DNA of 64,000 nt from Thermococcus henrietii. GTDB taxonomy: Archaea > Methanobacteriota_B > Thermococci > Thermococcales > Thermococcaceae. The position numbers and the translations under genes are program-made. Each line of letters begins with the position of its first letter. Positions within the stretch are counted from its first letter, which is position 1. Under the pieces are notes generated by a model, which was not told the origin of the DNA, ran no database searches, and worked only from the letters and a program-made list of their open reading frames with translations. The stretch is taken from the NCBI RefSeq assembly GCF_900198835.1, contig NZ_LT900021.1, positions 1,488,001 to 1,552,000 on the forward strand, in the 5' to 3' direction. Positions 16,296 through 64,000 of the stretch are shown one piece after another.

Positions 16296-16514
16296 TTAGG
16301 GCTTTTTGTTCTTTGTCTCCCCTGTTTTCTCAGTTTAGGGTTACTATGCCAGTTACGGGGAATTTAGAGTCTGAGAGCAGAATTTTGAATTCCAACGAGA
16401 CGGTGATTTTAGGCTGACCTAATTTATCTCTCGGAACCCCTTCTGGAATGAAACGCCTTTAAATCCAGGACGGGGCTTTTGGTGGGGAGTTTGAACCCCT
16501 GAGCGGTGATGCAA

Positions 16515-16558
16515 ACGGCTTAAACCCAAAAATTTTTGAAAATTGCGGGTTAAGCCGT
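16515..16558. other. Inverted repeat (hairpin) upstream of array 2
   Basis: The arms ACGGCTTAAACCC (16515-16527) and GGGTTAAGCCGT (16547-16558) pair over 12 bp with one bulged A; the loop is A/T-rich and contains AAAAATTTTT. It could be a terminator, a protein-binding site for spacer acquisition or a structured leader RNA. No equivalent was seen in leader 1. Confidence 0.6.
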
Positions 16559-16694
16559 CTTCACGGGGTTTCGATTCTTTTAATGGTATATTGACCCAAG
16601 AACCACCCAGCATACCGTAAAACGGCGGTTGAGATTGCTTTAAAAATTCCGGGTCGGCTTTATAAATGGAGTGCAGTGTTACGGGCCCGATGGA

Positions 16695-16709
16695 GAAACC
16701 CTTAAATAG
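16695..16709 (+). promoter_or_regulatory. Pre-crRNA promoter of array 2
   Basis: BRE-like GAAAC followed by the TATA element CCTTAAATAG lies 47 bases before the first repeat, at the same distance as in leader 1. A second TATA-like CTTTATAAATGG lies at about 16658-16669. Confidence 0.6.
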
Positions 16710-16755
16710 ACGAATGTCGTTAATCTTTTGAAAGAACGGACGGAAAAAGTCAAAA

Positions 16756-18600: not shown

Positions 18601-18650
18601 GCGATCGTGTCCAATAAGCCTGCTCAAGCAACGGTTCAGGAGGTCTTTCC

Positions 18651-19604
18651 GTGAAGAAGCCCTACTACATAACCCGAATCGGGACCCTCGAAAGGAAGGG
18701 CAACACGCTATTCTTCGTGAACGAGGAAATCAAGAGGGCGATACCCATAAACTCCACCAGCGAAATCCACTGCTTCAGGCCCGTTTCCCTGACGAGCGGG
18801 GCGATTAAGATACTCTCCGAGAAGAACGTCCCCGTGCACTTTTACAACAAGCACGGCTATTACCGGGGCTCCTACATGCCGAGGGAGGGGCAGATAAGCG
18901 GGACTGTAGTTCTGGCTCAAGCAAAACACCATCTCGACCCCGAAAAAAGGCTCTACGTCGCGAAGCAGTTCGTTGAGGGCATTAAGGCCTCGATGGTTGC
19001 CCTCCTGAAGTCCCATGGGGCCGATTATAAGGCCATAAAGGAAATCCCTGTTGATGGAGAAAGCCCCGCGGAGCTCATGGGCGTTGAGAGCCAGCTGTGG
19101 AGGGAGTTCTACGGCCTCTTCAGCGACCTGTTAAAGCACTTTGAGTTCAAGGAACGGACGAGGCGCCCCCCGAGGGACGAGGTGAACGCGCTGATAAGCT
19201 ACGGCAACTCGGTTCTCTACACGGTGGCGCTCTCAGAGATACGGAAAACCTACCTCCACCCCGCCATAAGCTTCCTCCACGAGCCCCTTGAAAGGAGGTA
19301 TTCTCTCGCCCTCGACATCGCTGATATCTTCAAGCCGATAACCGTTTTCAGGGTCATCCTCAGGCTCGTGAACAGGAGGCAGATACGGGAGGAGCACTTC
19401 AGGAAGGACGTTGGGGTTCTTCTGAACGACGGGGGGCTGAGAATCTTCATCGATGAGCTCAATTCGGAGCTCTCCAAAAAGGTTCTCCACCCGAGGTTCA
19501 GGAGAAAGGTCTCGATTCGCTACCTCATGAGGCTCGAGGGTTATTCCCTCGTCAAACACTTCCTTGGCGATTCCCGCTATAAGTCCCTCAGGGCGTGGTG
19601 GTGA
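18651..19604 (+). CDS. cas1: Cas1 integrase
   Basis: The 317-residue protein integrates new spacers at the leader end of arrays together with Cas2. The Cas1 metal ligands are visible as E146 (GVESQLWREFY), H210 (LHPAISFLHEP) and D222/D225 (LALDIADIFKP). GTG 18651 has AGGAGGT at 18638-18644 upstream. The gene begins only 50 bases after the last repeat remnant of array 2 and no strong TATA box is seen between, so it may be read from the array transcript. It overlaps cas2 by one base. Confidence 0.95.
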   Translation: MKKPYYITRIGTLERKGNTLFFVNEEIKRAIPINSTSEIHCFRPVSLTSGAIKILSEKNVPVHFYNKHGYYRGSYMPREGQISGTVVLAQAKHHLDPEKRLYVAKQFVEGIKASMVALLKSHGADYKAIKEIPVDGESPAELMGVESQLWREFYGLFSDLLKHFEFKERTRRPPRDEVNALISYGNSVLYTVALSEIRKTYLHPAISFLHEPLERRYSLALDIADIFKPITVFRVILRLVNRRQIREEHFRKDVGVLLNDGGLRIFIDELNSELSKKVLHPRFRRKVSIRYLMRLEGYSLVKHFLGDSRYKSLRAWW

Positions 19605-19861
19605 TGTACGTAATAGTTGTTTACGACGTTGACGTTAAGAGGGTCTCGAGGGTCCACAAATTCCTCAGGACACACCTCCACTGGCGCCAGAACAGCGTTT
19701 TTGAGGGAGAAGTCAGCAGGGCCCAGCTCTACGAGATAAAGAGAACCCTTGAGAGGCTGACGGAAGAGGGGGATTCCGTTCTAATCTACGAGCTCCCGCG
19801 CGCCAGCTTCACCCTGCACGTAATCGGAACAGACAAGAACCCTGCGGGGGAGATAATTTGA
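19604..19861 (+). CDS. cas2: Cas2 spacer-acquisition protein
   Basis: The 85-residue ferredoxin-fold protein starts MYVIVVYDVDVKR, with D8 and D10 at the end of the first strand as in Cas2 proteins, and has the later SVLIYELP strand. It dimerises and bridges two Cas1 dimers. ATG 19604 overlaps the cas1 stop by one base, and the end overlaps the start of cas4, giving a tight cas1-cas2-cas4 unit. Confidence 0.95.
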   Translation: MYVIVVYDVDVKRVSRVHKFLRTHLHWRQNSVFEGEVSRAQLYEIKRTLERLTEEGDSVLIYELPRASFTLHVIGTDKNPAGEII

Positions 19862-20346
19862 GAATCACCGGCGTCATGGTTCAGTACTACTTCACATGCA
19901 AAAGGGAGCTGTGGTTCTTTTCGAGGGGGCTGAACTTCGACTTCGAGAACGAGGACATGCTCATAGGCAGGCTAATCCACGGCGAGAGCTACGAAAGAGA
20001 CTGGAAGGAGGTGTTCCTCGGGGATGTAAAGCTCGACGTCGTGAAGAGGCAGGGAAAGCTGGTCGTCATCGAGGTCAAGAAGAGCTCAAAGCTCGAAGGG
20101 CCGGCAAAGTGGCAGTTGAAGTACTACCTCTACCTGCTGAGAAACGCGGGAGTCGAGGCCAAGGGGATAATCTCCTATCCACGGGAGGGCCGAAGGGAGA
20201 GGATAGCCCTGACGGAGGAAGACGTAGAAACTCTTGAGAAAGCGCTGAAGGGCATAGAAAGGGTTATATCCCTTGAGTCCCCACCTCTCGCCAAGAAAAA
20301 GCCCTACTGCAGGCGGTGCGCCTACAGGGACTTCTGCTGGGTGTGA
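19858..20346 (+). CDS. cas4: Cas4 RecB-like nuclease with 4Fe-4S cluster
   Basis: The 162-residue protein trims and selects prespacers so that they have the correct PAM end. The four cluster cysteines are C14, C151, C154 and C160 (YCRRCAYRDFC). The RecB nuclease residues are H41, D60, the IEVKK at 71-75 and Q86. The start is TTG 19858, overlapping the cas2 stop, with GGGGAG just upstream; the alternative ATG at 19876 would still keep C14 but would cut the conserved N-terminus. It is followed by cas3 after 3 bases. Confidence 0.94.
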   Translation: MRITGVMVQYYFTCKRELWFFSRGLNFDFENEDMLIGRLIHGESYERDWKEVFLGDVKLDVVKRQGKLVVIEVKKSSKLEGPAKWQLKYYLYLLRNAGVEAKGIISYPREGRRERIALTEEDVETLEKALKGIERVISLESPPLAKKKPYCRRCAYRDFCWV

Positions 20347-20349
20347 GGT

Positions 20350-22422
20350 ATGGAGCTGGATGAACTGGTTGAGCTCATGAAGGTTAAGAAGGCCAAGCCC
20401 GGGAGAAGCCTCTACGACCACTCCCTCGGCGTTCAGAGGATAGCGGAAAGGCTTTTGAGAAGGATTCCCCACGATAGCGCCCTCGATGAGTGCATCCTGA
20501 TGCACGCTTTTCTTCACGACGTCGGCAAGCTGGACGACAGGTTTCAGGCAAAGCTCGAGGGGAAGCTCAAACGCGCCCCGCCCCATGCCTACCTCGGCCT
20601 CGAGCTGGCCTCGCGCTTCCTCGACTGCGACGAGCCATGGAGGACGATAGCACTCCTTTCAATACTCACCCACCACAGCGACTTCCACGAGGGCCTTTAC
20701 CAGAGGGAGATAAACAGGAACGAGGCCCTCGTAGTTGACGGCGAGGTTATATCGCACTCGGCGCGAACCGTTGAGAAAGTGAGGGAGACGATACTCGCAG
20801 GGGATTTGGTCTACGACTACGACCTCAGTCCGGTCGAGCTCAGAAACCTTTACACCCTCTTCAACGGCGTTCTGAGGGTGGCGGACTGGCTTGAGAGCGC
20901 CGGTCTGGAGCCCGGGTCGTATCACCTGGACTCCGGGAGAAGCGTTCACAGCGGGGTTATCGAATACCTGAAGGGAAAAGGGCACGAGCTGAGGCCCTAT
21001 CAGAGGCTCGTCATCGGCAGGGGAGGGGGCTATTTCCGGCTCCCCACGGGCGACGGGAAGACGGAGACGAGCCTACTCGCCACTCCCGCGGACGTTTCAA
21101 AGGTTGTTTACTCCCTCCCCACGATAACCACAACAGAAGCGATGAGACGTCGCTTTGAGACGATGTTTGGAGATGGGATGGTGTCGTTCTCCCACAGCAT
21201 GCTCTTTCTGAGCCTCTACTACAGGGGTGAGCTGGAGAAGAAGCTCATACACAAATACGCGATGAAGCCAATCTTCGTTTCCACCGTTGACCAGGTCCTT
21301 CTGGCGTTCTTCAACTACCCGCGCTTCCCGGTGAGGGAGCTGGCCCTCAGAAACGCCCACTGGATAATAGACGAAATACACGCATACACACCGTACACTC
21401 TCTCCCTGATAGTCAACGCCATAGAGCACGCGATGAAATACCTCAAAACGCGCGTAACGGTTATGTCGGCAACCCTGCCCCACCTCCTCGCGGAGGAGCT
21501 CGAAAGGAGAGGGTTAAAGCCCCTGATTCCTCCGGAGAGCGTTGAAGATAGATACCGCTCGCGCAGAAGGGTCGAGGTTCAGGTGAGGGGCGAACCCCTT
21601 CAGAACGCCGTTGACGAGATAGCGCGCGAGAGGGGAAGGACACTCGTCGTTGTCAACACGGTGAAGAGGGCACGCGACCTCTATGGGGAGCTGAGGAAAA
21701 CGCGGGACGACGTTTACCTCTTCCACTCCCGCTTCATCAACGAGGACAAGAGGAGGAAGATGGAGCAGGTTGAGAAAATCGAAAGGGGTATTCTCGTGGC
21801 GACACAGGTCGTTGAGGTGTCGCTCGACATAGACTACGACGTCATGTACACCGAGGCCGCCCCGATAGATGCCCTCGTCCAGCGCTTTGGACGGGTGAAC
21901 AGGCGGGGGCTTAGGCACGGAAAAGCCTACATCTTCGAGCCCGAGGGTAAAAACGCCCATCTACCCTACGATAAGGATGCATTTAACGCGAGTCTGAACC
22001 TCTTAGGGGAGCTTGAGGAAATCGAAAGCGAGCTCGATTTGCTGAAAATCAACGACAGGTTTTACGAGCAGGTCTGGGGTAAGTACGAAAAAAAGCTAAA
22101 CGGCAGGCCGCCGCTCTTCAAGCTGAGGGACGTTTCGAGGTTCAGGTTCGCCGACAGGCAATTAACCAGGGACACCTTCATAACATTGCCGGCCGTTCCA
22201 AGACCTTTTCTCGATAAAGCGATTGAGCTCGCGGTTAAGTGGCCAGAGATGAGTGGGGAGGAACGCCTGAAGGCGGCCGTATACGTCATAGAGCACACCG
22301 TTAACGTGCCGATATGGGTTTTGAAGGAGCACCTCCACTACAACGAGGACCTTTACAGCGTCTTCGGAGTCTACGGAATCGAGCTGAACTACGACCCGGA
22401 AACGGGGCTGGGGGAAGAATGA
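20350..22422 (+). CDS. cas3: Cas3 HD nuclease-helicase
   Basis: The 690-residue protein unwinds and degrades target DNA recruited by Cascade. The N-terminal HD nuclease domain shows H24 (YDHS), H56-D57 (LHDVGK) and H108-H109 (LTHHSDFH). The superfamily 2 helicase domain has Walker A LPTGDGKTE (231-239), the DEIH box at 341-344, motif III MSATLP and motif VI QRFGRVNRRG. Both domains are intact in one chain, so the interference machinery looks functional. ATG 20350 follows GAGGT. In this locus cas3 closes the adaptation genes rather than following cas5, because array 2 separates the two gene groups. Confidence 0.95.
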   Translation: MELDELVELMKVKKAKPGRSLYDHSLGVQRIAERLLRRIPHDSALDECILMHAFLHDVGKLDDRFQAKLEGKLKRAPPHAYLGLELASRFLDCDEPWRTIALLSILTHHSDFHEGLYQREINRNEALVVDGEVISHSARTVEKVRETILAGDLVYDYDLSPVELRNLYTLFNGVLRVADWLESAGLEPGSYHLDSGRSVHSGVIEYLKGKGHELRPYQRLVIGRGGGYFRLPTGDGKTETSLLATPADVSKVVYSLPTITTTEAMRRRFETMFGDGMVSFSHSMLFLSLYYRGELEKKLIHKYAMKPIFVSTVDQVLLAFFNYPRFPVRELALRNAHWIIDEIHAYTPYTLSLIVNAIEHAMKYLKTRVTVMSATLPHLLAEELERRGLKPLIPPESVEDRYRSRRRVEVQVRGEPLQNAVDEIARERGRTLVVVNTVKRARDLYGELRKTRDDVYLFHSRFINEDKRRKMEQVEKIERGILVATQVVEVSLDIDYDVMYTEAAPIDALVQRFGRVNRRGLRHGKAYIFEPEGKNAHLPYDKDAFNASLNLLGELEEIESELDLLKINDRFYEQVWGKYEKKLNGRPPLFKLRDVSRFRFADRQLTRDTFITLPAVPRPFLDKAIELAVKWPEMSGEERLKAAVYVIEHTVNVPIWVLKEHLHYNEDLYSVFGVYGIELNYDPETGLGEE

Positions 22423-22428
22423 AAGGCC

Positions 22429-23070
22429 TCAACCTTCGAGCCATATCTCCAGCCTCTGCTTTCCCTTTCCGAGGCTGGAGCGCTTGAACTTCTCCAGGTG
22501 GCCGATTTCCTTTATGTCCCTCACGTGGGTTCCCCCGCAGGGAATGACCTCGAAGTCCCTAATCTGGGTGTAGCGGGTGTCACCTTCCCACCATATCCTC
22601 ATCTCCCCACCCTCGTCAACGAGCCTGTTGAAAGTCTCGATTATCTGCTCCTTCCACTTGTTCACATTCTCCGGGTAAACGATGTCAAGCCGGCCCTTCT
22701 CGGCGCTCATTCCGCTTCCGTAGGGCTCCCACTTCTCCGGCAGGACGACGTTGAGGACATGTTCGAGGAGGTGCATGGCGCTGTGAATTCTCATGAGCTT
22801 GTAGCGGTAGTCCCAGTCTATCTTAAGCTCAACCTCGTCGCCGGGCTTGAACTTCTCCGGCTCCGCAACGACGTGCCAGACGTTGCCTTGGTCGTCCTTG
22901 TAGACGTCGAGGACCTCGACGCCGTTTATCGTTCCCCTGTCGTGGGGCTGGCCGCCGCCGGTCGGGTAGAAAATCGTCTGGTCGAGAAGCAGGGCGTCCT
23001 CCTTCACTTCGAGAACCTTCGCCTTGGCCTCCTTGAGGTAGGCGTCCTCGTAGTAGAGCTTGCGGGTCAT
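22429..23070 (-). CDS. alaX: Alanyl-tRNA editing protein AlaX
   Basis: The 213-residue protein is a free-standing editing domain that hydrolyses mischarged Ser-tRNA(Ala) or Gly-tRNA(Ala). The zinc ligands are H96 and H100 in RIHSAMH, and C178 and H182 in PCGGTH. The glycine motif YPTGGGQPHD marks the AlaX-M type with the short N-terminal beta domain. It is convergent with cas3, with 6 bases between stops. It is a housekeeping gene and not part of the CRISPR locus. Confidence 0.93.
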   Translation of the reverse strand: MTRKLYYEDAYLKEAKAKVLEVKEDALLLDQTIFYPTGGGQPHDRGTINGVEVLDVYKDDQGNVWHVVAEPEKFKPGDEVELKIDWDYRYKLMRIHSAMHLLEHVLNVVLPEKWEPYGSGMSAEKGRLDIVYPENVNKWKEQIIETFNRLVDEGGEMRIWWEGDTRYTQIRDFEVIPCGGTHVRDIKEIGHLEKFKRSSLGKGKQRLEIWLEG

Positions 23071-23135
23071 TTAAACCACCGTAGAAAAGAGGGCACCGAG
23101 GTTTAAATGGGTATCGAAGAGGAAAAAGGAAAGGG

Positions 23136-25163
23136 TCACTTCCTCCTCCTGAGGAGGAGAGGTATTATTGCTAGCCCGACTATTGCGGCCGGACCGCAGA
23201 TGCCTTTCTTCGCTGATGAGCTCGTGGAGGTCGTAGTGGGGCTTGAAACGGGCGTGCTTCCCGCTATGTTGAGCTCCTTTGTGAGGACGGCTTTGTTCCC
23301 GTAGAAGTCCTCGGCCACTATCTCAAGCTTGTACTTCCCTGCCTTGAGTCCTGGAAGCTCAACGATGTAGAAGGTGTCGCCGGGCTTTCCGCTGGCGGGT
23401 TCGGCCGGGAACTTCTCAACCTTGCCGTACTTGACGAGGTTGCCGTTGGAGTCGTAGATTACCGCGTAGAGGTTCCTTATGCCGAGGTTGTCCTGGGCAG
23501 TGAAGTAGACGGTGAAATCGGAGTTCGGCTGGGGGTGGCTCGGCTGCAGGTAGGCAATCTGGAGGACGGGCTTCTCAGTGTCCTTGCCAGTGTCGATGAC
23601 GAGCTGGGAAACTCCCTTCGGGACCGTTACGTTGAGGAGCATGTAGTACTGACCCGCGATTTCCCTCTCCTTTATAACCTTGTAGGTGACGTTGGTGGCG
23701 CTCGGGTCCACCTTGGCGTTGGCCGGAACCGGAACGACGATGGGTCCTGAAACGCTGTTGTTGAGCTCGTTGATGAACTTAAGGGCGGTTCCAAGGCTCG
23801 TCTCGTACCTGAATATCATGAACTCCTGCGGGACCGGGACGCTTATGAAGTCGCTCCTGACCTTGTCGTTCTCAATCTTAACCGGGGTGTAAGGCATCTC
23901 AACGCTACCGTTCTCGCTTATGACTACGAGGTTGCTTCCGTACCACGTTGGGCTGTGCTTCGGGTTGGCCGGCGGGTTGGGCTCCTTGTCGGGGGCGCCG
24001 GTCGAGGTAAGGGTGAGGAAGTAGTGCTTGTGGCCTTCTTTATCGATGTAGAGCCAGTACATGTCGTGGTGGATGTGGCCGCTCATCGTGAGCGGGATGT
24101 TGTACTTGACGACGTCCTCGAGGAAGCGCTTCGCAACGGCCGGGTCAGCTCCCCAGTAGTGACCGACGTACTCCTTGAGCTGGTCCCAGTCAGTGCTCGG
24201 GTCGAGGTTCTTTATAACGCCGCCAAGGTAGTTCCAGCGTGGGGCGAAGAAGTACGGGTGGTGGTATAGAACTATCGGAATGTATCCCTTGTGCTCGTTG
24301 AGGACCTTCTCCATCCACTCAATCTCGTCCATGGTCGGGTAGCCGCGGTCGCCGCCGGTGTCGAGACCGATTATGAGGAACTTGCCGATGGTGACGTAGA
24401 AGTACGTCGGGCCGAGAATCTGGGTGTAAACGGTCGGCGGGTCATCGTGGTTGCCCTTAATTCCAACGACCGGGAGTCCTGAGGCGGACGCAAGCTTGGT
24501 GATGTTGAAGATTATCCTGTAAGCCGTGAGGTCACTACTCGTATCGGACTGGTCACCGGTGTTTATGAGAATGGTCGCGCCCTTCATAGCCCAGTACTGG
24601 TAGGCGCTGTAAGTCGCGACGATACTGTGAAGCGGAATCGGGTTGGAGCACATGTTCTCGAGCTTGTATATGTTGTTCTGGAAGTAGGGACCGCAGACGT
24701 AGCCTATCTTTGCGCCGGTGGTGACGTGTGTGTCGCTGACCCAGGCAATCTTGAGGGTCTTCGGCCACTCCTTGAAGACCTTGAGACCGTTCGGAAGAAC
24801 GAGGGTTCCCTGGTTGGTCTTTATGAGCAGGAAGTAGTCATCGGGGGCCATGTCCTTGGGAACGCCAACGACAACCGTGCTCATGTCTTTCCCCGCTGGA
24901 GCGGTGGCGCTGAGTATGTGGAGGTCGTAGGGGCCGTGCAGAATCGAGACGGCTTCTATTCCCTTCACGTCCAGGTTGTTCCCCTTCAGGTAGAGGGTGA
25001 AGTTGCCGCCCGGAATAGCGAACGCTGGAACAACTGGTGCCGGCTGGTAGAGGAACTTGCTGTACGTGTACGAATAGCTGCCGGTAGCCGATACTGGCGT
25101 TACGTTCAAAATCGCCAGTGCACCCATAAAAGCCAGCAATAGTGCCAACAGCCGCCTGGCCAT
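23136..25163 (-). CDS. Secreted calcineurin-like metallophosphoesterase with CGP-CTERM tail
   Basis: The 675-residue protein has a signal peptide (RRLLALLLAFMGALAILN, cut near VSATG), a beta-rich N-terminal domain, and a metallophosphoesterase domain with WVSDTHVT, NTGDQSD, IKGNHDD and MSGHIHHD, the usual Asp/His/Asn metal ligands. A further Ig-like region precedes a Ser/Thr linker. The end, GICGPAAIVGLAIIPLLLRRRK, is a CGP-CTERM sorting tail seen in Thermococcaceae, so it should be surface-anchored. ATG 25163 follows a GGTGAT site. A TATA-like AGGTTTTAAGTG upstream suggests its own promoter. The substrate is unknown; the nearby importer suggests it may release something for uptake. Confidence 0.88.
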   Translation of the reverse strand: MARRLLALLLAFMGALAILNVTPVSATGSYSYTYSKFLYQPAPVVPAFAIPGGNFTLYLKGNNLDVKGIEAVSILHGPYDLHILSATAPAGKDMSTVVVGVPKDMAPDDYFLLIKTNQGTLVLPNGLKVFKEWPKTLKIAWVSDTHVTTGAKIGYVCGPYFQNNIYKLENMCSNPIPLHSIVATYSAYQYWAMKGATILINTGDQSDTSSDLTAYRIIFNITKLASASGLPVVGIKGNHDDPPTVYTQILGPTYFYVTIGKFLIIGLDTGGDRGYPTMDEIEWMEKVLNEHKGYIPIVLYHHPYFFAPRWNYLGGVIKNLDPSTDWDQLKEYVGHYWGADPAVAKRFLEDVVKYNIPLTMSGHIHHDMYWLYIDKEGHKHYFLTLTSTGAPDKEPNPPANPKHSPTWYGSNLVVISENGSVEMPYTPVKIENDKVRSDFISVPVPQEFMIFRYETSLGTALKFINELNNSVSGPIVVPVPANAKVDPSATNVTYKVIKEREIAGQYYMLLNVTVPKGVSQLVIDTGKDTEKPVLQIAYLQPSHPQPNSDFTVYFTAQDNLGIRNLYAVIYDSNGNLVKYGKVEKFPAEPASGKPGDTFYIVELPGLKAGKYKLEIVAEDFYGNKAVLTKELNIAGSTPVSSPTTTSTSSSAKKGICGPAAIVGLAIIPLLLRRRK

Positions 25164-25237
25164 GGTATCACCGGTGGGAAGGGGAGAAGAGGCACTTAAA
25201 ACCTTTCCCGTTCGAAACCTGTCCAAAGGAACACCAT

Positions 25238-25816
25238 TTAATGTCCCTTTTGAGTCTTCCCTGTCAAAAAAGATACCATGTAGTCCGCAGTCGGAGAGCG
25301 ACCGCCGAGGTGTTTGTAGAGGGAGTGCATCTCCAGAATCTGGACTCTCAGCTTTTCCTCCGGCCTCACGAGGTAGCGCGTGAAGAGTACCGCCATCTCA
25401 ACGAGCAGGCAGTCGGCCCTGCTGAACGGTCGGAGTGGCAGAGTTCCCTCGATTTCGCCCTCAGGAATCAGCTCGCAGAGCAGAACCTCGGTCTCGCCGA
25501 GTTCATCCTTCCAGCGCTCGACCTTCCACTTCACCTGCCCATAGAAACCTGGTAAGCCTTTAATCCAGCGATAGTCGTTCATCTCAACGAACTCCAACTC
25601 GACGGGAAGGTTCAATGCGGTTCTGACGAGCAGTTCGGGGTCGTTGGTGAGCTGAATTGAGGCCTTAGCGGTTTCAAGAACCTCACGGAAGCTCTTTCCG
25701 GGGAAGAGCTTGAACCTTAGCCTCTCGCCCTCCCGGACGACGCCAACGGGCGTAACGTTCGAACGCGTGACGAGAAGGACCTCGTAAACCCTCCCCTCTT
25801 CGAAAACGTCGAGCAT
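25238..25816 (-). CDS. DUF447 family protein (flavin-reductase-like split barrel)
   Basis: The 192-residue protein starts with the DUF447 pattern RVYEVLLVTRSNVTPVGVVR, a predicted FMN-binding split-barrel element, and continues with mixed alpha/beta sequence. Members are found mainly in archaea and have no defined reaction. GGTGG precedes ATG 25816. It lies 28 bases downstream of the ABC ATPase gene on the same strand and so may be co-transcribed with the importer. Confidence 0.72.
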   Translation of the reverse strand: MLDVFEEGRVYEVLLVTRSNVTPVGVVREGERLRFKLFPGKSFREVLETAKASIQLTNDPELLVRTALNLPVELEFVEMNDYRWIKGLPGFYGQVKWKVERWKDELGETEVLLCELIPEGEIEGTLPLRPFSRADCLLVEMAVLFTRYLVRPEEKLRVQILEMHSLYKHLGGRSPTADYMVSFLTGKTQKGH

Positions 25817-25844
25817 TCCAACCACCGGAAAAGGAGAAGGGAAA

Positions 25845-26909
25845 TCAGAGGTTCTGCTTGGGGAGGACTATTATGTCGTCCCTGTCGATGTAGAAGGTAA
25901 CCGGCTGGGTTGGCCGGAGGTTGGCTATCTCCCTGTCGCTTATGGCCCTGGCTATGATCCTCGTCTCGCCGAAGAGGCCAACGACCTCGGTGAAGAAGCC
26001 GTAGTACTCGATGAGGTCAACGGTTCCCTCGAGCGAGACTGTGTTTTCTCCGGGTCTGAACTTTATGCGCTCCGGCCTTATGACGAGGACGACATTGTCG
26101 CTCTTCTCGGTGTAGTGGAGCCCGTCGAGGCGGAAGCTCTCAAACTCAACGGTAACCTTGTCGCCATTCCTCTCGACGACCTTAGCGGGGATGACGTTGG
26201 TCTTGCCCATGAAGCTCGCCACGAACTCGGTCCTCGGCCTCTCGTAGATGTCCCTTGGTGTTCCGACCTGCTCGACGGTTCCGACGTTCATAACCGCTAT
26301 CCTGTCGCTTATGGCCATTGCCTCCTCCTGGTCGTGGGTAACGTAGATGACGGTTATTCCGAGCTCGCGCTGGATTCTCCTGATTTCCGAACGCATCTCA
26401 AGCCTTAACTTGGCGTCAAGGTTGCTCAACGGCTCGTCAAGGAGGAGGACCTTCGGCTCGACAACGAGTGCCCTGGCTATGGCAACACGCTGCTGCTGTC
26501 CGCCGGAAAGCTGTGTGGGATAGCGGTTCTCGAAGCCCTTGAGCTTCACCAGCTCGAGCGCCCACTCGACCTTCCTCTTGATTTCCTCCTTGGGGACCTT
26601 CCTAATCTTGAGGCCGTAGGCGACGTTGTCGAAGACCGTCATGTGGGGCCAGAGGGCGTAGTTCTGGAAGACGAGCACGGCACCGCGCTGGTAGGAGGGG
26701 AGGTAGGTGACCTCCTCATCGCCGAAGTAGATGTGTCCGCTGTCGGGGTAGTCGAGGCCCGCTATAATCCTCAGCGTCGTGGACTTTCCACACCCGCTCG
26801 GGCCGAGCAGGGTGAAGAGCTCCTTGTGCTTTATGTGAAGGTTTATTCCCTTTAACGCGGTCGTTCCATCGAAGGTTTTCACGATGTTCTCAAGCTTAAC
26901 GTCAACCAT
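25845..26909 (-). CDS. ABC transporter ATPase (Fe3+/thiamine/polyamine class, with TOBE domain)
   Basis: The 354-residue ATPase has Walker A GPSGCGKSTT, the ABC signature LSGGQQQRVAIARAL, Walker B VLLLDEP and the His-loop VTHDQEEA. The C-terminal 110 residues form a TOBE-type domain as in FbpC/PotA/CysA. It powers the importer formed with the double permease at 26923-28767. ATG 26909 has GGTGAT at 26914-26919; the gene starts 14 bases after the permease stop. The substrate cannot be told from the ATPase. Confidence 0.92.
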   Translation of the reverse strand: MVDVKLENIVKTFDGTTALKGINLHIKHKELFTLLGPSGCGKSTTLRIIAGLDYPDSGHIYFGDEEVTYLPSYQRGAVLVFQNYALWPHMTVFDNVAYGLKIRKVPKEEIKRKVEWALELVKLKGFENRYPTQLSGGQQQRVAIARALVVEPKVLLLDEPLSNLDAKLRLEMRSEIRRIQRELGITVIYVTHDQEEAMAISDRIAVMNVGTVEQVGTPRDIYERPRTEFVASFMGKTNVIPAKVVERNGDKVTVEFESFRLDGLHYTEKSDNVVLVIRPERIKFRPGENTVSLEGTVDLIEYYGFFTEVVGLFGETRIIARAISDREIANLRPTQPVTFYIDRDDIIVLPKQNL

Positions 26910-54417: not shown

Positions 54418-54485
54418 CGAACATTTTTTATATCATTGGCCCGTAAAAGGCCGTGTTAGTTTCAGTGATTTCAACGGTGACACCT

Positions 54486-55007
54486 ATGCCAGGCGGAAGC
54501 TGGGAAAAGATAATCTCGATGACGAAGGACGGAATAAAGAGCATAGGGATGATTAAACAGAAGTCCAAGCGTGGGAAGAAGATAGCCCTTCTCATTGATG
54601 GACCGAACATCCTGAGGAAGGAGTTCGGGATAAAGCTCGAAGACATCGTTGACGTTTTAGAGAGCATCGGAGACATCCGCGTTGCGAAGGTCATACTCAA
54701 TCAGTACGCCCCCCAGGGCCTCATAGAGGCGGTCTCGAATCAGGGGTTTGAGGCCGTTGTCGTTTCCGGCGAAACGGGGGTAAAGCTTGCCGTTGAGGCC
54801 ATGCGCGAGATTTACAACCCCAACATAGATGTAATCGCCCTCGCGACGCGGAACGCGGAGTTTCTGCCGGTCATCCTCAAGGCCAAGGAGAAGGGGAAGG
54901 AAACAGTGGTCATCGGCGTCGAGCCGGGATTCTCCGTTGCGTTAAAGCACGCGGCGGACTACACCATAGTCCTCGAGCCCAAGCGGGACGGGAGGGATGA
55001 GCTGTGA
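54486..55007 (+). CDS. NYN-domain putative RNase (TIGR00288-like), copy 1
   Basis: The 173-residue protein has a short basic leader and a NYN domain: [20 protein letters not shown] supplies the first Asp and [16 protein letters not shown] the later Asp/Glu cluster of the PIN-like active site. In the second acidic motif this copy reads TRNAEFLP where the other copy reads [11 protein letters not shown] proteins are related to PIN nucleases. GGTGAC precedes ATG 54486. It overlaps the next, paralogous gene by 4 bases. Confidence 0.85.
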
Positions 55008-55489
55008 AGGAGACGCTCATCAAGGTCCTCAAGCGCGAGAAAGAGCCACCAAGTGAGGAGATAAGCGGCAAGAGCATCGGGCTCATAATAGACGGACCGA
55101 ACATCCTGAGGAAGGAGTTCGGGATAAAGCTCGAAGACATCGTTGAGGCCCTTGAGAGAATTGGTAAGATAAGGGTCGCAAAGGTTGTCCTCAACCAGTA
55201 CGCACCCCAGGGACTCATAGAGGCGGTCGTCAACCAGGGGCTTGAGCCCGTTATAGTCGCCGGCGACACCGACGTGAGGATAGCGATAGAGGCCATGGAG
55301 CTCATATATAACTCCGACGTGGAGGTTATAGCCCTGGCCACGAGGGACGCGGATTTTCTACCTATAATCCAGGAAGCGAAGAGAAAGGGAAAGGAGACGA
55401 TAGTCATAGGCACCGAGCCCGGCTTTTCTGTGGCCCTTCAGAACGCCGCCGACTACGTCATCAAGATGGTTAGCAAGGTAGAGGACTGA
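55004..55489 (+). CDS. NYN-domain putative RNase (TIGR00288-like), copy 2
   Basis: The 161-residue protein is a close tandem duplicate of the preceding one: [20 protein letters not shown] is nearly identical and the acidic motif is [15 protein letters not shown], the full form. The two likely form a heterodimer or have divided roles. GTG 55004 overlaps the upstream stop; GGAGGGATGAG is the ribosome site. Confidence 0.87.
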
Positions 55490-56984: not shown

Positions 56985-57037
56985 TGGAGAAACATTTATA
57001 TACTCCAAGAGCAGTGATATTAAGTGCAGTGGTGTCT
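56985..57037 (+). promoter_or_regulatory. Promoter of the coiled-coil gene cluster
   Basis: BRE-like GAGAAAC precedes the TATA element ATTTATATAC at about 56992-57001. GGTG at about 57029-57033 is the likely ribosome site for ATG 57038. The rest of the 295-base gap from 56743 holds no gene I can support. Confidence 0.55.
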
Positions 57038-57553
57038 ATGCGATATTTGGTGATAGTGAGATACGAAAATGATGCCGAGAGAAAGAGAGTGGACTACCTC
57101 CTTGAGAAATGGTCAGAAAAAACTTCAATAAAAAAACCAAAGGGTCTTATTTTTTTCATAGATACCGACCGTCCACATGAGTTCTTGGAGGACTTGTTTT
57201 CAAAGTTAGAGGGAGAACCCGAGAGGAAAGTGGAGGTGTATAAGGTTGAAGGTACCGTTAGGGGGGTGGAGAAAAGGAGCGTTGAGTTGAGATACAAAAT
57301 TCCCGAGGAAAAGCGAGTGGTTGAGAGGTTTATTGAGTATATCCTTACGAAGTTTAATGCAAACGTACTCCAGAAGATAGGGGGGAGCAAAGTCTACGAG
57401 GTCCCCACGCGAAAAGGTAGGGGTACGGTACAAGTGGAACTCAAAGAGAACAACGGGACCGAGGTCATAATCACGATTCAGGGTTATGGGGATGTTGTTG
57501 ATTTTCTTTCAGAACGAATCAAAGAAGAACTCACATTGTTTGCAGGTGATTAA
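57038..57553 (+). CDS. Small alpha/beta protein of unknown function, first gene of coiled-coil cluster
   Basis: The 171-residue protein starts MRYLVIVRYENDAERKRVDY and alternates strands and charged helices; a central part (KRSVELRYKIPEEKRVVERFIEYILTK) and a basic beta hairpin (VYEVPTRKGRGTVQVEL) stand out. The composition suggests one or two ferredoxin-like units, but no family is recognised. The stop is one base before the start of the next gene (TAAG-ATG), so the two are tightly coupled. A longer start at 56984 would place the TATA box inside the gene and is rejected. Confidence 0.75.
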   Translation: MRYLVIVRYENDAERKRVDYLLEKWSEKTSIKKPKGLIFFIDTDRPHEFLEDLFSKLEGEPERKVEVYKVEGTVRGVEKRSVELRYKIPEEKRVVERFIEYILTKFNANVLQKIGGSKVYEVPTRKGRGTVQVELKENNGTEVIITIQGYGDVVDFLSERIKEELTLFAGD

Positions 57554-57554
57554 G

Positions 57555-59399
57555 ATGGGGCTATTTGAGGAGGGCAGGACGGATTGTGTTAAGGCTTTGC
57601 TAAAACCCGCGGAGCGGGTTTTGAAAGAAGGGCTGGATATCGCGGTAGAGAGTTTTCAGAGGCGAGAAAAGCTCTGGCAACAGGTAGAAGAAAATTATGA
57701 ACGCTATTTAGACGGAGAATGTGGGGAATTTCTTAGGGACCTTGATATGCACTTTAGGAGCAAGTTTGAGGGCGCGTTGGCTTTGCTCGCTTGGAGTTTC
57801 AGGCAGAACGGCGAAACGTACCTTCCAGCCAGTAGGAGGTATAGGGACAGGGAGCTTGAGGCTCTCGAACGTGTTCTCCGTTACAACGTCTTTGAAATTT
57901 ATACTATGGAGGACATACTGAGGCAGATAATGCATAGGGACACCAACATTCTCGGTCTCCTCAGGGAGTACCGTAGCGTGAACACATGGATTGAGGGAAT
58001 ACTACAGGACCACAGCATCAAGTTGCAGCTGAGATTGTTCTTGAAATCAACATGGGAATCCTACAAGGGCAAAATAACCGCCGCTATGGCAGAGGCAACA
58101 CAGCGCTTTGATTGGTTCCAGGACGTCATCCACGAAGCCGAAGAAGAAACAATGGCCGTCGAGAGGACATACCGGAGACAACTGGAGAGGAAAGACCAAG
58201 AGATGAACGAACTGAGGAAGCAGATGAACAGTATGCGCATGAGATTCGAGCAGGAAAAGGCGGAGCTTCAGAAAAGACTTGAAGCCGCAAAGGATGAGGA
58301 ACTCGCCCGCATCATTCAGGAAAAGGAGGAGATGCGGAGAAGGTTCGAAGAGGAAAAGGCCCGGCTTGTTGAAGAGATAAGCAGAATGAAAGATGAGGAA
58401 GCTAGAAAGATGCTGGAAGAAGAACTGGCCAAGATGCAGGAGAAAATGACGGCAGAAGTTAGGGCGATGGAGGAAGAAATAAAACGGAGGGAACTCCAGC
58501 TCAGAGAAAAAGAAATGGAACTTAGGAAGAGAGAACTTGAAATCAAAGAGAAAGAGGACGAGATTTCAAGGAAAATCCGAGAGGTAATGAACCTTACAGG
58601 AAAGGTCGAGAAGGGTTCACGCTTTGTGAAACTTGACGAAGCAAGGATAATGGAGATTAACTTCATCGGTCGGATTAAGAGCAAGTTCAAGGACAACGTT
58701 AAACTCCTTGGAATGACGTTTAAGGTGGAGTCAGTAAAGGAAGTAAAAACGTTTGACAAAACATCGTACGTTGGAAAGCTCAATGAGAGGGACCTCAAAA
58801 ACGTTCCGGACAATACGCTTGTTGAGGTCAAGCTAAAGGAAAAGAAGCTTCTTGGCAGGGGAAAAGAGATAATGGTCAAGGCACTCTTCTACGGAAGGCC
58901 AGAGCGTTATGCGGAGGTCGGCTTCGATACAGACCCAATTGAATTGGCCGACATAAACGCCCTCCTAATAGACGCCCGGGATAACGCCAAGAACGGCCGC
59001 GTTGTTCTTCTCGTGGCATCTCCCACGGGATTCGAGAGGAGAGTAAGGAGTTACATCGACTCGAAGGACTTTCATAGGAACTTTATCTCCGAGAACGTCT
59101 CCATTGCCCTCCTTGACCTTGAGAGCGGTGAACTGCTGTACAATCCCCACGATGAATACGCTAAGGCCTTTAAGCCTTTCCTCAGGCTTGAACGGGATGA
59201 AGAACTCTTGGCCAAGGTCAAGGCAATGCTTGAGGAGAGAGTCTCACAGAAGGGATACGTTAGGCTTGAAGATGCCGTTGGAGACTTTTCCGAGGACATC
59301 GTGAAAAGGGCATTCCAGGAACTCAAGAATGAGAAAGGTTACGTAACAAAATTCATCGACGGCGTTGGTTACGTCCTCGTAAAGGAGGGGTTCCTCTGA
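57555..59399 (+). CDS. Large coiled-coil protein with C-terminal winged-helix-like domain
   Basis: The 614-residue protein has a helical N-terminal domain (1 to about 215), a long Glu/Lys/Arg-rich coiled coil (about 215-365), a beta-rich region (about 370-460), an alpha/beta region (ALLIDARDNAKNGRVVLLVASP, IALLDLESGELLYNP) and a final 75 residues that read like a winged helix (LLAKVKAMLEERVSQKGYVR, FSEDIVKRAFQELKNEKGYV). No ATPase motif is present. GGTGAT precedes ATG 57555. It is followed by two small coiled-coil genes with which it probably forms an assembly. I know no named family for it. Confidence 0.8.
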   Translation: MGLFEEGRTDCVKALLKPAERVLKEGLDIAVESFQRREKLWQQVEENYERYLDGECGEFLRDLDMHFRSKFEGALALLAWSFRQNGETYLPASRRYRDRELEALERVLRYNVFEIYTMEDILRQIMHRDTNILGLLREYRSVNTWIEGILQDHSIKLQLRLFLKSTWESYKGKITAAMAEATQRFDWFQDVIHEAEEETMAVERTYRRQLERKDQEMNELRKQMNSMRMRFEQEKAELQKRLEAAKDEELARIIQEKEEMRRRFEEEKARLVEEISRMKDEEARKMLEEELAKMQEKMTAEVRAMEEEIKRRELQLREKEMELRKRELEIKEKEDEISRKIREVMNLTGKVEKGSRFVKLDEARIMEINFIGRIKSKFKDNVKLLGMTFKVESVKEVKTFDKTSYVGKLNERDLKNVPDNTLVEVKLKEKKLLGRGKEIMVKALFYGRPERYAEVGFDTDPIELADINALLIDARDNAKNGRVVLLVASPTGFERRVRSYIDSKDFHRNFISENVSIALLDLESGELLYNPHDEYAKAFKPFLRLERDEELLAKVKAMLEERVSQKGYVRLEDAVGDFSEDIVKRAFQELKNEKGYVTKFIDGVGYVLVKEGFL

Positions 59400-59441
59400 A
59401 GCTTTCGTTTTTAGTATGCAGATTGTGGTGGGGGTGTTGAT

Positions 59442-60038
59442 ATGGGACTAAGAGACATGTTTGGGAAAAAGAACACGATAGAGAAGCTCTCCCTTAGGGA
59501 GCTCCAGGGGGAAGAGATACGGCTGAGAAACAGACTGGAACGTCTCAAGAAGGACCTCAACCAGATAGAGAAAAAGAAAAAGCAGCTCTTTCAGGAGGGA
59601 ATCGGAGCGGATAAACTCAAGAAGAAGATGCTTGCCCAAGAAATCAAAAGCCTCGACATGGAGCAGAAACTCAAGCTCAAGGACTTCACGATGGCCCAAA
59701 AGCAGTACACTCTGATAAAGAATATGATAATCGTCAAGAAGTACGAGAAGGAGCTTCGGAAAGTTGGGATATGGGAAAAGCTGAGCAGTGTTGAGCCAGA
59801 ACAGCTCGAGCAGGCCCTGATAAAGATAAACCTTGACGGAAAGGAGTTCGATGAGATGGTAAGCAGCCTCAACAGGGTATTCGAAATGGAGGTTGCTGAA
59901 TTTGAAGAGAGCGAAGACGAGACGGAGAGGGAGCTTCTCAAAGCCTGGAGCCAGGTAGAAACAGGGGAAGCTGATGTAGAAGAGGTCGCAGAGAAGGTCA
60001 TTTCTATGGACAAAAAACTTGAGGATGAGGAGCTATGA
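59442..60038 (+). CDS. Small coiled-coil protein, ESCRT-III/Snf7-like layout, copy 1
   Basis: The 198-residue protein starts MGLRDMFGKKNTIEKLSLRE, then has two long basic helices (to about residue 95), a shorter helix region with MxxxN-type spacing (FDEMVSSLNRVFEM, about 133-148) and an acidic C-terminus (EFEESEDETERELLKAWSQV). A short N-terminal amphipathic segment, a basic hairpin, and an acidic tail are the plan of ESCRT-III proteins. The evidence is shape only. GGTGGGGGTG precedes the ATG; it overlaps its paralogue by 4 bases. Confidence 0.75.
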   Translation: MGLRDMFGKKNTIEKLSLRELQGEEIRLRNRLERLKKDLNQIEKKKKQLFQEGIGADKLKKKMLAQEIKSLDMEQKLKLKDFTMAQKQYTLIKNMIIVKKYEKELRKVGIWEKLSSVEPEQLEQALIKINLDGKEFDEMVSSLNRVFEMEVAEFEESEDETERELLKAWSQVETGEADVEEVAEKVISMDKKLEDEEL

Positions 60039-60652
60039 GCATCCTCTCAAAATTTTTTGGAAAAAGAAATCCGCTGGACGTCCCCTTGAAGAGCCTTAAC
60101 GAGAGCAGAATAAAACTGGAGTACCAGATAGAGAAAGTTGAGAATGAGATAGCAGGCATTGACCGGGAGATAGCGATACTATTCGAGAGAGCCAAAAGAG
60201 CGAGGAGCAAGAGCGAAGAGCTGACCATTGCAACCAAGATTAAAACGCTCAACCAGCGCAAAAAGAACCTCCAGAAGACTCACATGCAACTTAACAAACA
60301 GCTCATGCTCATCAGTAACCTTGCAATAATCAAGGAAAACGAGGCTCTTCTCAAGGGCACACCGACGTGGAATCTACTTCGTAGGATGTCTCCAGAGGAG
60401 CTTGAGCGCCACCTCACAGAGATGCAACTCGATGCCCAGAACTTCAACGAGAACCTCAACCAGATGCTGGGCATGACCGACCAAACGATAGGAGCAGGTG
60501 TGGATTTTGAAGAAGATGAGGAGCTTGCCGAGATTATGAGGACCATCCACGCGGTCAAGGAAGGGGAACTCGAGCCCGAGGTAGCGGCAGAGAAAGTAAC
60601 CGGCGAAGAGAGGCCGAAGAAAAGGAAGGAGGATTGGTTCGAGGAGTTTTGA
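60035..60652 (+). CDS. Small coiled-coil protein, ESCRT-III/Snf7-like layout, copy 2
   Basis: The 205-residue protein is a diverged paralogue of the previous one: MSILSKFFGKRNPLDVPLK at the start, a basic coiled-coil hairpin (to about 110), LRRMSPEELERHLTEMQLD aligned with LSSVEPEQLEQALIKINLD of copy 1, a helix FNENLNQMLGM and an acidic VDFEEDEELAEIM. It ends with a basic patch and WFEEF, which could be a short linear binding motif. ATG 60035 overlaps the stop of copy 1 (ATGA). The T-rich terminator just after suggests that the operon ends here. Confidence 0.75.
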   Translation: MSILSKFFGKRNPLDVPLKSLNESRIKLEYQIEKVENEIAGIDREIAILFERAKRARSKSEELTIATKIKTLNQRKKNLQKTHMQLNKQLMLISNLAIIKENEALLKGTPTWNLLRRMSPEELERHLTEMQLDAQNFNENLNQMLGMTDQTIGAGVDFEEDEELAEIMRTIHAVKEGELEPEVAAEKVTGEERPKKRKEDWFEEF

Positions 60653-60688: not shown

Positions 60689-63600
60689 ATGAAAAAGAGA
60701 ATCATTGCTGTTGTGTGGGTCGTTCTAGTAATTGAAGCGTTTCTCCTAACTCCCTACCCTACTGTAGCTACAGGTTACTCAGATACAATTTATGAGTACA
60801 AGTATGTCCTCCCATTAGTATACCTAGAATCCCTATGGGGTGCAGATGGTTACCACAGCGGTATTGTCGTATTCTCGGCGACACCAGATACAAAGGTTCT
60901 TATAGACACTAACTTTAACGGTCCTGATGCCTCAGATAAAGTGTTCACTCTTTCTGCAGGGGATAGACTGTATATAGGCAACTTTCCTGATGTTTCCAAA
61001 TATCAAACGTTTCAATGGAACAAGAATCCGTTGGTGATATACTCAAATAAACCCCTGTATATACAGGGGCAATACTCCAACAATGATTTTGGGGACTATG
61101 ATGATTCATACATGTTCTTTGGAACACCTATTCCGGGTACCAAACTAATAGGCCCAGACGTTAAAATGTTGTACATAACAGCTTATTCAAGTGAAACTGA
61201 TGTTTATATAAATGGGAACTACATCGGACATGTTTCCCCCGGAGAAGTCCTAACGGAAAATTTCACTACTCCTCAAACTGTGGTTGTAACTTCCACAAAG
61301 CCTGTTGTGGCTATGGGAGTATCAATAGATCCCTCCACAAGAAGCAGGAGCTACGCATTCCCATTGATGCCCCCAATGTCAGGCAAATTTTTGATTCCCG
61401 ATTCAAATGCACAGTATGCTTATGAGATGAATACACAGGAAGTTAATGAGCGTTATCTCATCTTGGATTCAAACGGAAACATTATCAAAAACGAATCCCT
61501 ACCTTCAACACCACAAGTTTTTACACTCCAAAACTCAGAAGTCTTTGTCTTTAGAACTTATTACTACCAAGACCCTTGGGGAGATGGAGCCTCAAGATAC
61601 GCCATGAGTGCTACAGCCATAAAGCCGGCTATGAACTCAACGTTGATTGGATGGATTGGAAAAGTCGATAATAATGATGTAAACAGAGAGCTCGTATTCT
61701 ACGCTGCCAGTAACGTAAAAATCTATGAGGACTATAATGGGGACGGAACAATTGACAACGTTGAAATGCTCTCAGGGGGTAGAATTTACAAGTTCTCTGA
61801 TAGGAAAGATAATGAATCTGTGTTGATATATGTGGTTGGTAATATCTCCGGTGAATATTTGGATTTTGTTGGGTGGGCTGGACAACTCGAAGGAGTGCAG
61901 GAAGAAGGGACAGTCCCCCTGTCCAAAATCAACAGTCTTGAAAATAGTGGAAGTTCTGAGAGTAACGAGAACTCCCAGAGTATGGGGCATACTATCTTCT
62001 TTGACGGCTTTGAAAATTACACTGTTGGGTCATTTCCTTCAGCAGGCGGATGGATTCTTGATTATGAAGGAGCAGGTAGCAGTTATCAAAAAGTAGTCTC
62101 TTACCCTGTTAAAACAGGAGAAAAAGCACTGCAGTTATTGTCTGCTCAAGGATGCTGGGCTGCAGTTGCAGAACATAAATTCAACTCGAATGCTCAGATA
62201 ATAGGGTTTGAAGCAGATGTTATGGCCCAGAGTTTTGGAACCGAGGGATGTGGAGGGAATAGAACTACTGTTATACGATTGGCCTTCTGGAATGGGAATC
62301 TAGATTCCTGGGGTAGATACTATGCCGATGTACAATTTGCTCACAATGGCATTATTTACGCCCTATCCTCAGGTATAGAGCACAGATTAATCTCTTGGAA
62401 GCCTCAGAAGTGGTATCATGTCACAGTAATTCTTAACAGAAACACAAACACGTACTCTGTGTATATAAACAACAAACTTGTCGCCAGCAATATCCCTGTG
62501 GAGCATACAGACACAAACAATATCAACGCTATAGTATTAACCGCTGGACACGCTAATACCAAAGTGTTCTTTGACAACGTAAGAGTTTTTGAAATAAATT
62601 CAAGTGCATCAATATCAAAACAAACTCCAATCCTAAAAGTGGTTCAATATCTAACTCCTGAGGACCTATCTAAGTGGAAGTATTATCGCAATGTTATCAT
62701 ACAGGACAAGTCCGGACAAACATTGAAGAACTTTCAGGTTCTGATTAAACTCAACTCAACTAACTTTGACTTCTTCCACGCCAACCCCGATGGTAGTGAT
62801 ATAAGGATAGTGGATGAAAACGGCAACTTTTTGCCCTACTGGATTGAGGAGTGGAACTTAACTTCAAAAGAGGCGGAAATCTGGACGATAGTTCCAGAAA
62901 TCCCAGCATATGGGACGGTCACATTAAAATTATACTACGGCAATCCCAACGCCCAGAGTAGAAGCAATGGGGATAAAGTGTTCGAGTTTTTTGATGATTT
63001 TTCAAGAGATGTGATAATAAACAAACAAAAATGGAACCTTAACTACAGTTATAACTCAACATGGACCCTTGTGAATGGATTACTAAAATACACAGCTAAT
63101 GGTAACAGGGGGTACCTTTTGACAAACCAATACTGGGGACGTGAAAACTTAATGTGGTGTACTGTAGCAAAATCTTCCAATGACTATCAGAATTGGGTTG
63201 TATGGTACAGTCCTCCCTTTGGTGGATACGTATCTAATCCTGGAACAGGTTATTTTGTAGATGTTAGGGCCTATGGATACGGATGGAGCATAGGAGAATC
63301 CTCTGGAAACCCATGGCAGTGGAAAAATATTGCTCTAGGCAATATATCTAATGATGGGTCTTCATGGTATTTGGCGTGTATTGCATTAACACCATCTCAA
63401 GTCATTGGCTACATTAAAAATCTCAACACCGGAAAGTCAGAAATTCTTACTGCCACTGATCAAAATTATACAGCCCCGAGAATGTTTGGGTTATCCTCAC
63501 GAGAGCAACCAGACGGAGCTACTGCATATTTTAAATATGCATATCTACGCCTCTATGCCCCCAAAGACCCTCTTGTTACTGTGGGTAGTGAACACATTAC

Positions 63601-64000
63601 AGAGGAGTATAGCCAGTCGACAACTCCAACGACCACCTACACCTCAACAGCTACTCAAACTTCTACAACAACTCAAACTCCAACCCAAACCTCGTCTTCC
63701 ACAACAACCCAAGCTACATCGAATACGCAAACATCTACCTCAACCCTCGCCCCAGTCGCCAGCTCCGCAATAGGCGCAGCTAAGACAATAATATCCCAGG
63801 TACCATCCTACGTGAACACCAGCCAAGCGAAGACTCTGCTGGAAGAGGCACAGAATGCCTACAACAACGGGGATTACAAACTCGCCAAAGAATTCGCTGA
63901 AACTGCTCAAGCTCTTGCGGTCAAGTCCTACTACGACGCATTATATACCAAACTCCAAGAGGAAAAAGCCAAAGGCGTTGACACGTCCAAAGCAGGAACA
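60689..64000 (+). CDS. Very large secreted multidomain protein (DUF2341, lectin-like), 5' part
   Basis: The frame is open for 1104 codons from ATG 60689 (GGAGATG upstream) to the window edge. It has a signal peptide (IIAVVWVVLVIEAFLL), a beta-rich domain of about 420 residues with short repeats, a concanavalin-type/LamG-like region (about 437-640, FFDGFENYTVGSFP to KVFFDNVRVFEI), a DUF2341 domain (about 662-760, KWKYYRNVIIQDKSGQTL ... PYWIEEWN ... LKLYYGNP), a second lectin-like part, a Thr/Ser-rich linker (about 974-1023) and a helical region with a TPR-like pattern. The DNA is AT-rich compared with most of the window. It should be a surface or adhesion protein; the end is missing. Confidence 0.85.
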   Translation, partial: MKKRIIAVVWVVLVIEAFLLTPYPTVATGYSDTIYEYKYVLPLVYLESLWGADGYHSGIVVFSATPDTKVLIDTNFNGPDASDKVFTLSAGDRLYIGNFPDVSKYQTFQWNKNPLVIYSNKPLYIQGQYSNNDFGDYDDSYMFFGTPIPGTKLIGPDVKMLYITAYSSETDVYINGNYIGHVSPGEVLTENFTTPQTVVVTSTKPVVAMGVSIDPSTRSRSYAFPLMPPMSGKFLIPDSNAQYAYEMNTQEVNERYLILDSNGNIIKNESLPSTPQVFTLQNSEVFVFRTYYYQDPWGDGASRYAMSATAIKPAMNSTLIGWIGKVDNNDVNRELVFYAASNVKIYEDYNGDGTIDNVEMLSGGRIYKFSDRKDNESVLIYVVGNISGEYLDFVGWAGQLEGVQEEGTVPLSKINSLENSGSSESNENSQSMGHTIFFDGFENYTVGSFPSAGGWILDYEGAGSSYQKVVSYPVKTGEKALQLLSAQGCWAAVAEHKFNSNAQIIGFEADVMAQSFGTEGCGGNRTTVIRLAFWNGNLDSWGRYYADVQFAHNGIIYALSSGIEHRLISWKPQKWYHVTVILNRNTNTYSVYINNKLVASNIPVEHTDTNNINAIVLTAGHANTKVFFDNVRVFEINSSASISKQTPILKVVQYLTPEDLSKWKYYRNVIIQDKSGQTLKNFQVLIKLNSTNFDFFHANPDGSDIRIVDENGNFLPYWIEEWNLTSKEAEIWTIVPEIPAYGTVTLKLYYGNPNAQSRSNGDKVFEFFDDFSRDVIINKQKWNLNYSYNSTWTLVNGLLKYTANGNRGYLLTNQYWGRENLMWCTVAKSSNDYQNWVVWYSPPFGGYVSNPGTGYFVDVRAYGYGWSIGESSGNPWQWKNIALGNISNDGSSWYLACIALTPSQVIGYIKNLNTGKSEILTATDQNYTAPRMFGLSSREQPDGATAYFKYAYLRLYAPKDPLVTVGSEHITEEYSQSTTPTTTYTSTATQTSTTTQTPTQTSSSTTTQATSNTQTSTSTLAPVASSAIGAAKTIISQVPSYVNTSQAKTLLEEAQNAYNNGDYKLAKEFAETAQALAVKSYYDALYTKLQEEKAKGVDTSKAGT

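Follow-up and report, generated by a model that had tools for sequence, protein, structure and literature searches.

We examined a 64,000-base window of the Thermococcus henrietii genome (contig NZ_LT900021.1, positions 1488001-1552000 of 2,155,760 bases), in which an earlier reading of the sequence alone, the original prediction, had singled out four closely spaced genes at 57038-60652 as a possible undescribed assembly resembling ESCRT-III. ESCRT is the eukaryotic machinery for cutting and budding membranes. Our analysis indicates that the locus very probably forms the 5' end of a 'Main'-clade archaeal ESCRT system, one that would be switched by kinases and a phosphatase and would serve budding, sorting or membrane repair, not division. 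The class is not undescribed: Makarova et al. reported it from sequence in 2024, in a text that assigns these components to the "Main" archaeal ESCRT clade, Thermococcales included, proposes roles in protein sorting or vesicles, and notes kinases and phosphatases (PMC10936438).

ESCRT-III assignment of genes 3 and 4

Genes 3 and 4 (59442-60038 and 60035-60652, both on the + strand; 198 and 205 aa), hereafter ESCRT-III A and B, are paralogues as originally proposed, with 30% identity over 191 aa (E = 1e-18). Four lines support their identity as ESCRT-III proteins: Snf7 matches at the level of the family, the arrangement of predicted helices, the ranking of fold matches and the genomic surroundings. 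Snf7 was the Pfam family most often matched, by 14 of 29 family members (best E = 4.5e-6), and gene 4 matched it over its full length (E = 0.0017). When the genome was ranked against Snf7, the top two places went to gene 4 and to the gene at the opposite end of the same operon; in this genome-wide search the cut-off of the model was passed by none of the control genomes, Sulfolobus acidocaldarius among them. Searching the PDB with a profile of the family returned CdvB2 as the top match, nearly full length (E = 0.05), and the third ESCRT-III protein of the operon (C), searched in the same way by itself, found nothing.

The predicted structure follows the same plan. An AlphaFold2 (AF2) model of gene 4 places helices at residues 3-8, 18-54, 59-101, 103-106, 110-117, 120-128, 137-146 and 162-175, that is, a short first helix, a long alpha1-alpha2 hairpin and then short C-terminal helices. 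Foldseek ranked CdvB2 filaments 1-6 and 8 against this model (probability up to 0.97); CHMP2A-CHMP3, CHMP3, CdvB and Asgard ESCRT-IIIB also appear, further down the top 50. The other features read from the sequence were also real, including the N-terminal FGK[KR] segment, the long helical hairpin, and a basic first half followed by an acidic remainder (net charges +14/-20 in A, +9/-14 in B and +9/-11 in C). The first helix of gene 4 (residues 3-8) is predicted by AF2, and its hydrophobic moment is not above that of other stretches.

Several observations weigh against this assignment. The Snf7 scores of single proteins, that of gene 4 included, fall under the curated Pfam cut-off, and gene 3 as a single protein had no Snf7 match in the Pfam profile search. 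Every Foldseek E-value for the gene 4 model, which has a pLDDT of 73.9, exceeds 0.1, and long helical hairpins draw chance matches. No strict MIM1 motif was found in the C-terminal tails of A, B and C in a sequence check limited to MIM1, and the single loose match lies in B at residue 161. Likewise, no MIT domain was matched by sequence in the Vps4 of the operon, in either Pfam or the PDB. The weak single-sequence scores and high Foldseek E-values would suit unrelated coiled-coil proteins that merely resemble ESCRT-III, but the sequence profile, the fold ranking and the genome-wide Snf7 ranking all favour ESCRT-III and an ATPase with a Vps4_C domain is co-encoded, which leaves that explanation quite improbable. 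A PspA/Vipp1-type envelope-stress pair, in place of Snf7/CdvB-type ESCRT-III, is more improbable still. PspA and ESCRT-III belong to one superfamily according to the text of PMC10936438, but the PspA_IM30 profile misses the ESCRT-III genes of the operon, where Snf7 matches and Vps4 is co-encoded; elsewhere in the genome that profile has matches, all under the cut-off. No single line of evidence for ESCRT-III is decisive, but all of them together with the linked Vps4 are convincing.

A 14-gene cluster with Vps4, kinases and a phosphatase

Genes 1-4 come first in a same-strand cluster of 14 genes that extends past the window end and covers ~26 kb (genome positions 1545038-1570897). The originally described set of four therefore needs enlarging: the genes are real and tightly spaced, but they are only the first 4 of 14. 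Gene 1 (57038-57553, + strand) is followed after a 1-base gap by gene 2 (57555-59399, + strand), which is separated by 42 bases from gene 3, and genes 3 and 4 share an ATGA overlap, all as described. Gene 5 (60689-64000 and cut by the window end, + strand) begins 36 bases past gene 4 and encodes a 1542-aa secreted or membrane Ser/Thr kinase (profile matches to Pkinase, E = 2.7e-49, and DUF2341, E = 1.2e-27). Two further kinases (550 and then 1292 aa) come next, and a pentapeptide/ion-channel protein separates them from an AAA ATPase of about 400 aa. Beyond the ATPase lie, in order, kinases of 1254 and 774 aa, the PP2C phosphatase, one more kinase (630 aa) and, last, ESCRT-III C (182 aa). Intergenic gaps are mostly small or overlapping, with two exceptions of about 135 and 310 bases that could be sites of extra promoters, and we infer a single operon.

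The promoter proposed for the gene set is borne out by an exact match to TTTATATA at 56995-57002 (+ strand), 35 bases 5' of the gene 1 start codon, which is probably the archaeal TATA box of the operon promoter. This motif occurs 6 times in the window compared with 0.39 expected from shuffles. A sigma-70 promoter scan, which is ill suited to archaea, gave counts at chance level. The terminator proposed for the gene set was not supported: a search of the + strand turned up no site resembling an intrinsic terminator, and the kinase gene downstream is co-directional. Upstream of the operon, 54453-55007 and 55004-55489 are tandem, overlapping genes for paralogous small proteins with a common motif, and a gene similar to this pair also lies upstream in another locus (L042).

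A Vps4-type ATPase, which the original prediction had suggested seeking elsewhere in the genome, lies in the same cluster as genes 1-4. The AAA ATPase matches both AAA (E = 9.8e-41) and Vps4_C (E = 7e-8) above the cut-off, and its N-terminus is a conserved domain of ~75 residues. The same genome carries a standalone Vps4-like ATPase (L067:2162-3244; genome positions 1640661-1641743) whose C-terminal 290 residues share 55% identity with the operon Vps4. Standalone Vps4 has been noted in Thermococcales in the text of PMC10936438; it differs from the operon gene in being unlinked to ESCRT-III and in being present also in genomes without ESCRT-III. Separately, a second Vps4-like ATPase (59-64% identical) adjoins the third ESCRT-III gene in 11 genomes (G038, G040, G043, G050, G053, G054, G062, G065, G070, G076 and G088). 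The six kinases of the cluster are membrane Ser/Thr kinases, several of which have large predicted extracytoplasmic regions with PEGA, DUF2341 or, as judged by eye, beta-propeller-like parts.

Gene 2 encodes a 614-aa protein whose AF2 model (pLDDT 82) begins with a helical domain and continues with a long coiled coil (residues 186-349, 58110-58601, by AF2 secondary structure) and an alpha/beta domain in the centre, with a winged helix at the C-terminus (residues 547-609, 59193-59381, in the AF2 order H-E-H-H-E-E). Both the coiled coil and the winged-helix-like end that had been read from the sequence are thus present in the model. Foldseek returned winged-helix matches, the best to 4kmf (probability 1.00, TM-score 0.74 by target, rmsd 2.2; the position in the query was unprinted). 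Judged from its published description as ending in an ESCRT-II/CdvB-like winged helix, gene 2 is probably arCOG09748. It is not a CdvA, a protein that has an N-terminal PRC barrel and a three-helix coiled coil: no PRC domain was matched in gene 2, and its N-terminus is helical in the model. Foldseek also matched the gene 2 coiled coil with axonemal and F-BAR proteins, but at low TM-scores and low probabilities, and these matches were set aside as spurious.

Gene 1 is an open reading frame for a 171-aa alpha/beta protein with orthologues in the same position (38-58% identity). It had no significant Pfam or PDB match, and no match to Cas2 or DUF3568. This small two-part protein occupies the place expected for an arCOG08177-type protein, a family described in the text of PMC10936438 as a Cas2-like domain plus a TBP-like domain, and on position and that description it is probably arCOG08177.

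Distribution and the compact form

Conservation was assessed across 115 Thermococci genomes; a phylum-wide search returned the same 115. Across Thermococcales the genes remain grouped, in about one-third of these genomes: ESCRT-III A/B occur in 39, gene 2 in 40 and the operon Vps4 in 38. Of the 115 genomes, 36 have both ESCRT-III and the operon Vps4, 74 have neither and 5 have just one of the two (Fisher P = 7e-24, uncorrected for phylogeny); these 5 comprise assemblies that are fragmented and a degenerate locus in G041. Between loci, identity is 71-91% for A/B, 45-78% for gene 2 and 38-58% for gene 1; gene 3 is 75-91% identical across all orthologous loci. For A and B, dN is 0.06-0.08 with synonymous sites saturated, indicating low protein change. 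No relative was detectable among viral contigs.

Two variants of the locus were observed alongside this pattern. In G041, where the operon Vps4 is absent, a 610-aa open reading frame (L041:9990-11819, with the same gene in L068) combines an ESCRT-III B domain with a region resembling the gene 2 N-terminus (33% identity). In several genomes (loci L034, L036, L038, L039 and L040), gene 2 and ESCRT-III A are separated by a gene for a HepT-like toxin (Pfam E = 6.7e-32 for the one in L036), often accompanied by a second small gene.

The operon of the window is a long form, and a compact form was found in 13 loci (L044, L045, L047, L048, L049, L053, L054 and L115-L120). All 13 have the same order on one strand: DUF302, gene 1, gene 2, A, B, one kinase, Vps4, PP2C, C and a copper P-type ATPase. 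The DUF302 gene directly upstream is Met/His-rich (DUF302 E = 4e-19), and the ATPase directly downstream is of the copper type (TIGR01511 E = 6e-195). One compact cassette is carried at 15642-26443 on a circular 49,106-base Thermococcus peptonophilus plasmid (NZ_CP014751.1, L114), surrounded by genes for an ACR3 arsenite pump, several heavy-metal P-type ATPases, DUF302 and ArsR; the extrachromosomal element itself was reported in PMC5823998. In the topology of a tree of A, B and gene 2, genera are intermixed among the compact loci, which suggests horizontal transfer of this form.

This arrangement raises the possibility of a response to metal or envelope stress, in which the kinases would trigger ESCRT-III to mend damaged membrane or to remove membrane patches that carry metal-loaded transporters, the compact form being specialised for copper-type stress. 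The invariant order, the strength of the ATPase and DUF302 matches, and the arsenite and heavy-metal genes around the plasmid cassette all favour it. However, the window's own operon is of the long form and its genome has no close homologue of the compact-locus copper ATPase, and a shared resistance island can reflect hitch-hiking. In many genomes the copper-type ATPase is found without ESCRT genes, and most genomes that carry it have it away from them, so the link runs one way. Taking both sides together, we regard a stress response of this kind as possible but rather unlikely. Somewhat more doubtful is a further elaboration, in which a mobile, kinase-controlled ESCRT cassette would act with the copper-type efflux ATPase and the DUF302 protein in heavy-metal tolerance, mending or shedding metal-damaged membrane, and the six kinases of the related long form would adapt it to different surface signals.

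Function and relation to known ESCRT systems

The genome contains three FtsZ/tubulin-family genes, and division is therefore an unlikely role for the ESCRT system. Nothing that we found points to the defence module also raised in the original prediction; as a candidate defence system, genes 1-4 were rejected, their PADLOC and NCBIfam matches being coiled-coil or chance matches. The best reading of the gene content is signal-regulated membrane budding or repair. From the components and their linkage, which the computation establishes, we infer how polymerisation, regulation and output might proceed. ESCRT-III A, B and C would form polymers on the inner side of the membrane, which gene 2 would nucleate or cap through its winged helix and Vps4 would disassemble and recycle. 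The kinases and phosphatase would turn the system on and off upon surface or envelope signals, and the output is likely to be vesicle budding, the sorting of proteins in the membrane or its repair.

To our knowledge, no machinery for vesicle formation in Thermococcales is known. That the cluster is the extracellular-vesicle machinery of the vesicle-producing members of this order is a tentative proposal, one we would not favour at present. In its support, Thermococcales make vesicles, and vesicle production in Sulfolobus islandicus requires ESCRT-III and Vps4 (PMC10117752). The same 2021 review states that Thermococcales lack ESCRT-III (PMC10117752), a statement with which our sequence-based assignment disagrees, and the presence of these genes here likewise favours the proposal. 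Against it stand the patchy distribution and unpublished disruptions of three Vps4 homologues in T. kodakarensis, which left vesicle production unaffected (PMC10117752); these disruptions also weigh against budding as the output of a Main-clade system, in a strain not established as a carrier of the operon.

Under the reading of a signal-regulated Main-clade system, the operon offers exact gene targets, in about one-third of the genomes searched, for asking whether ESCRT cuts membranes in archaea that carry FtsZ. Its kinases and phosphatase would make it a case of archaeal ESCRT under phosphorylation control. The compact form linked to the copper ATPase suggests a testable stress role, and the plasmid copy means that an ESCRT cassette can be plasmid-borne.

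Among known systems, eukaryotic ESCRT-III/Vps4 (CHMP2A/CHMP3) shares the core fold, by Foldseek ranking, and the Vps4_C domain; it differs in that no MIT domain or strict MIM1 is detectable here and no ubiquitin-linked ESCRT-0/I components were seen in the locus. The Sulfolobus Cdv system (CdvA, CdvB/B1/B2 and CdvC/Vps4) is alike in its ESCRT-III paralogues and Vps4, and CdvB2 is the closest solved structure. Unlike that system, the cluster has no CdvA that we could find, includes kinases and PP2C, and belongs to a host with FtsZ-family genes. The cluster resembles the archaeal Main clade as presented in the text of PMC10936438: Vps4 and ESCRT-III are co-encoded with membrane Ser/Thr kinases and a phosphatase, together with a small protein probably of the arCOG08177 plan and, judged by description from the AF2 and Foldseek results, one with the arCOG09748-type domain order and C-terminal winged helix. 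The compact copper-ATPase-linked form and plasmid carriage appear to be new relative to that text, whose supplementary tables may record the link. Compared with the Main clade as set out there, the systems described here thus add three ESCRT-III genes per operon, six kinases in the window's genome, the compact form and carriage on a plasmid.

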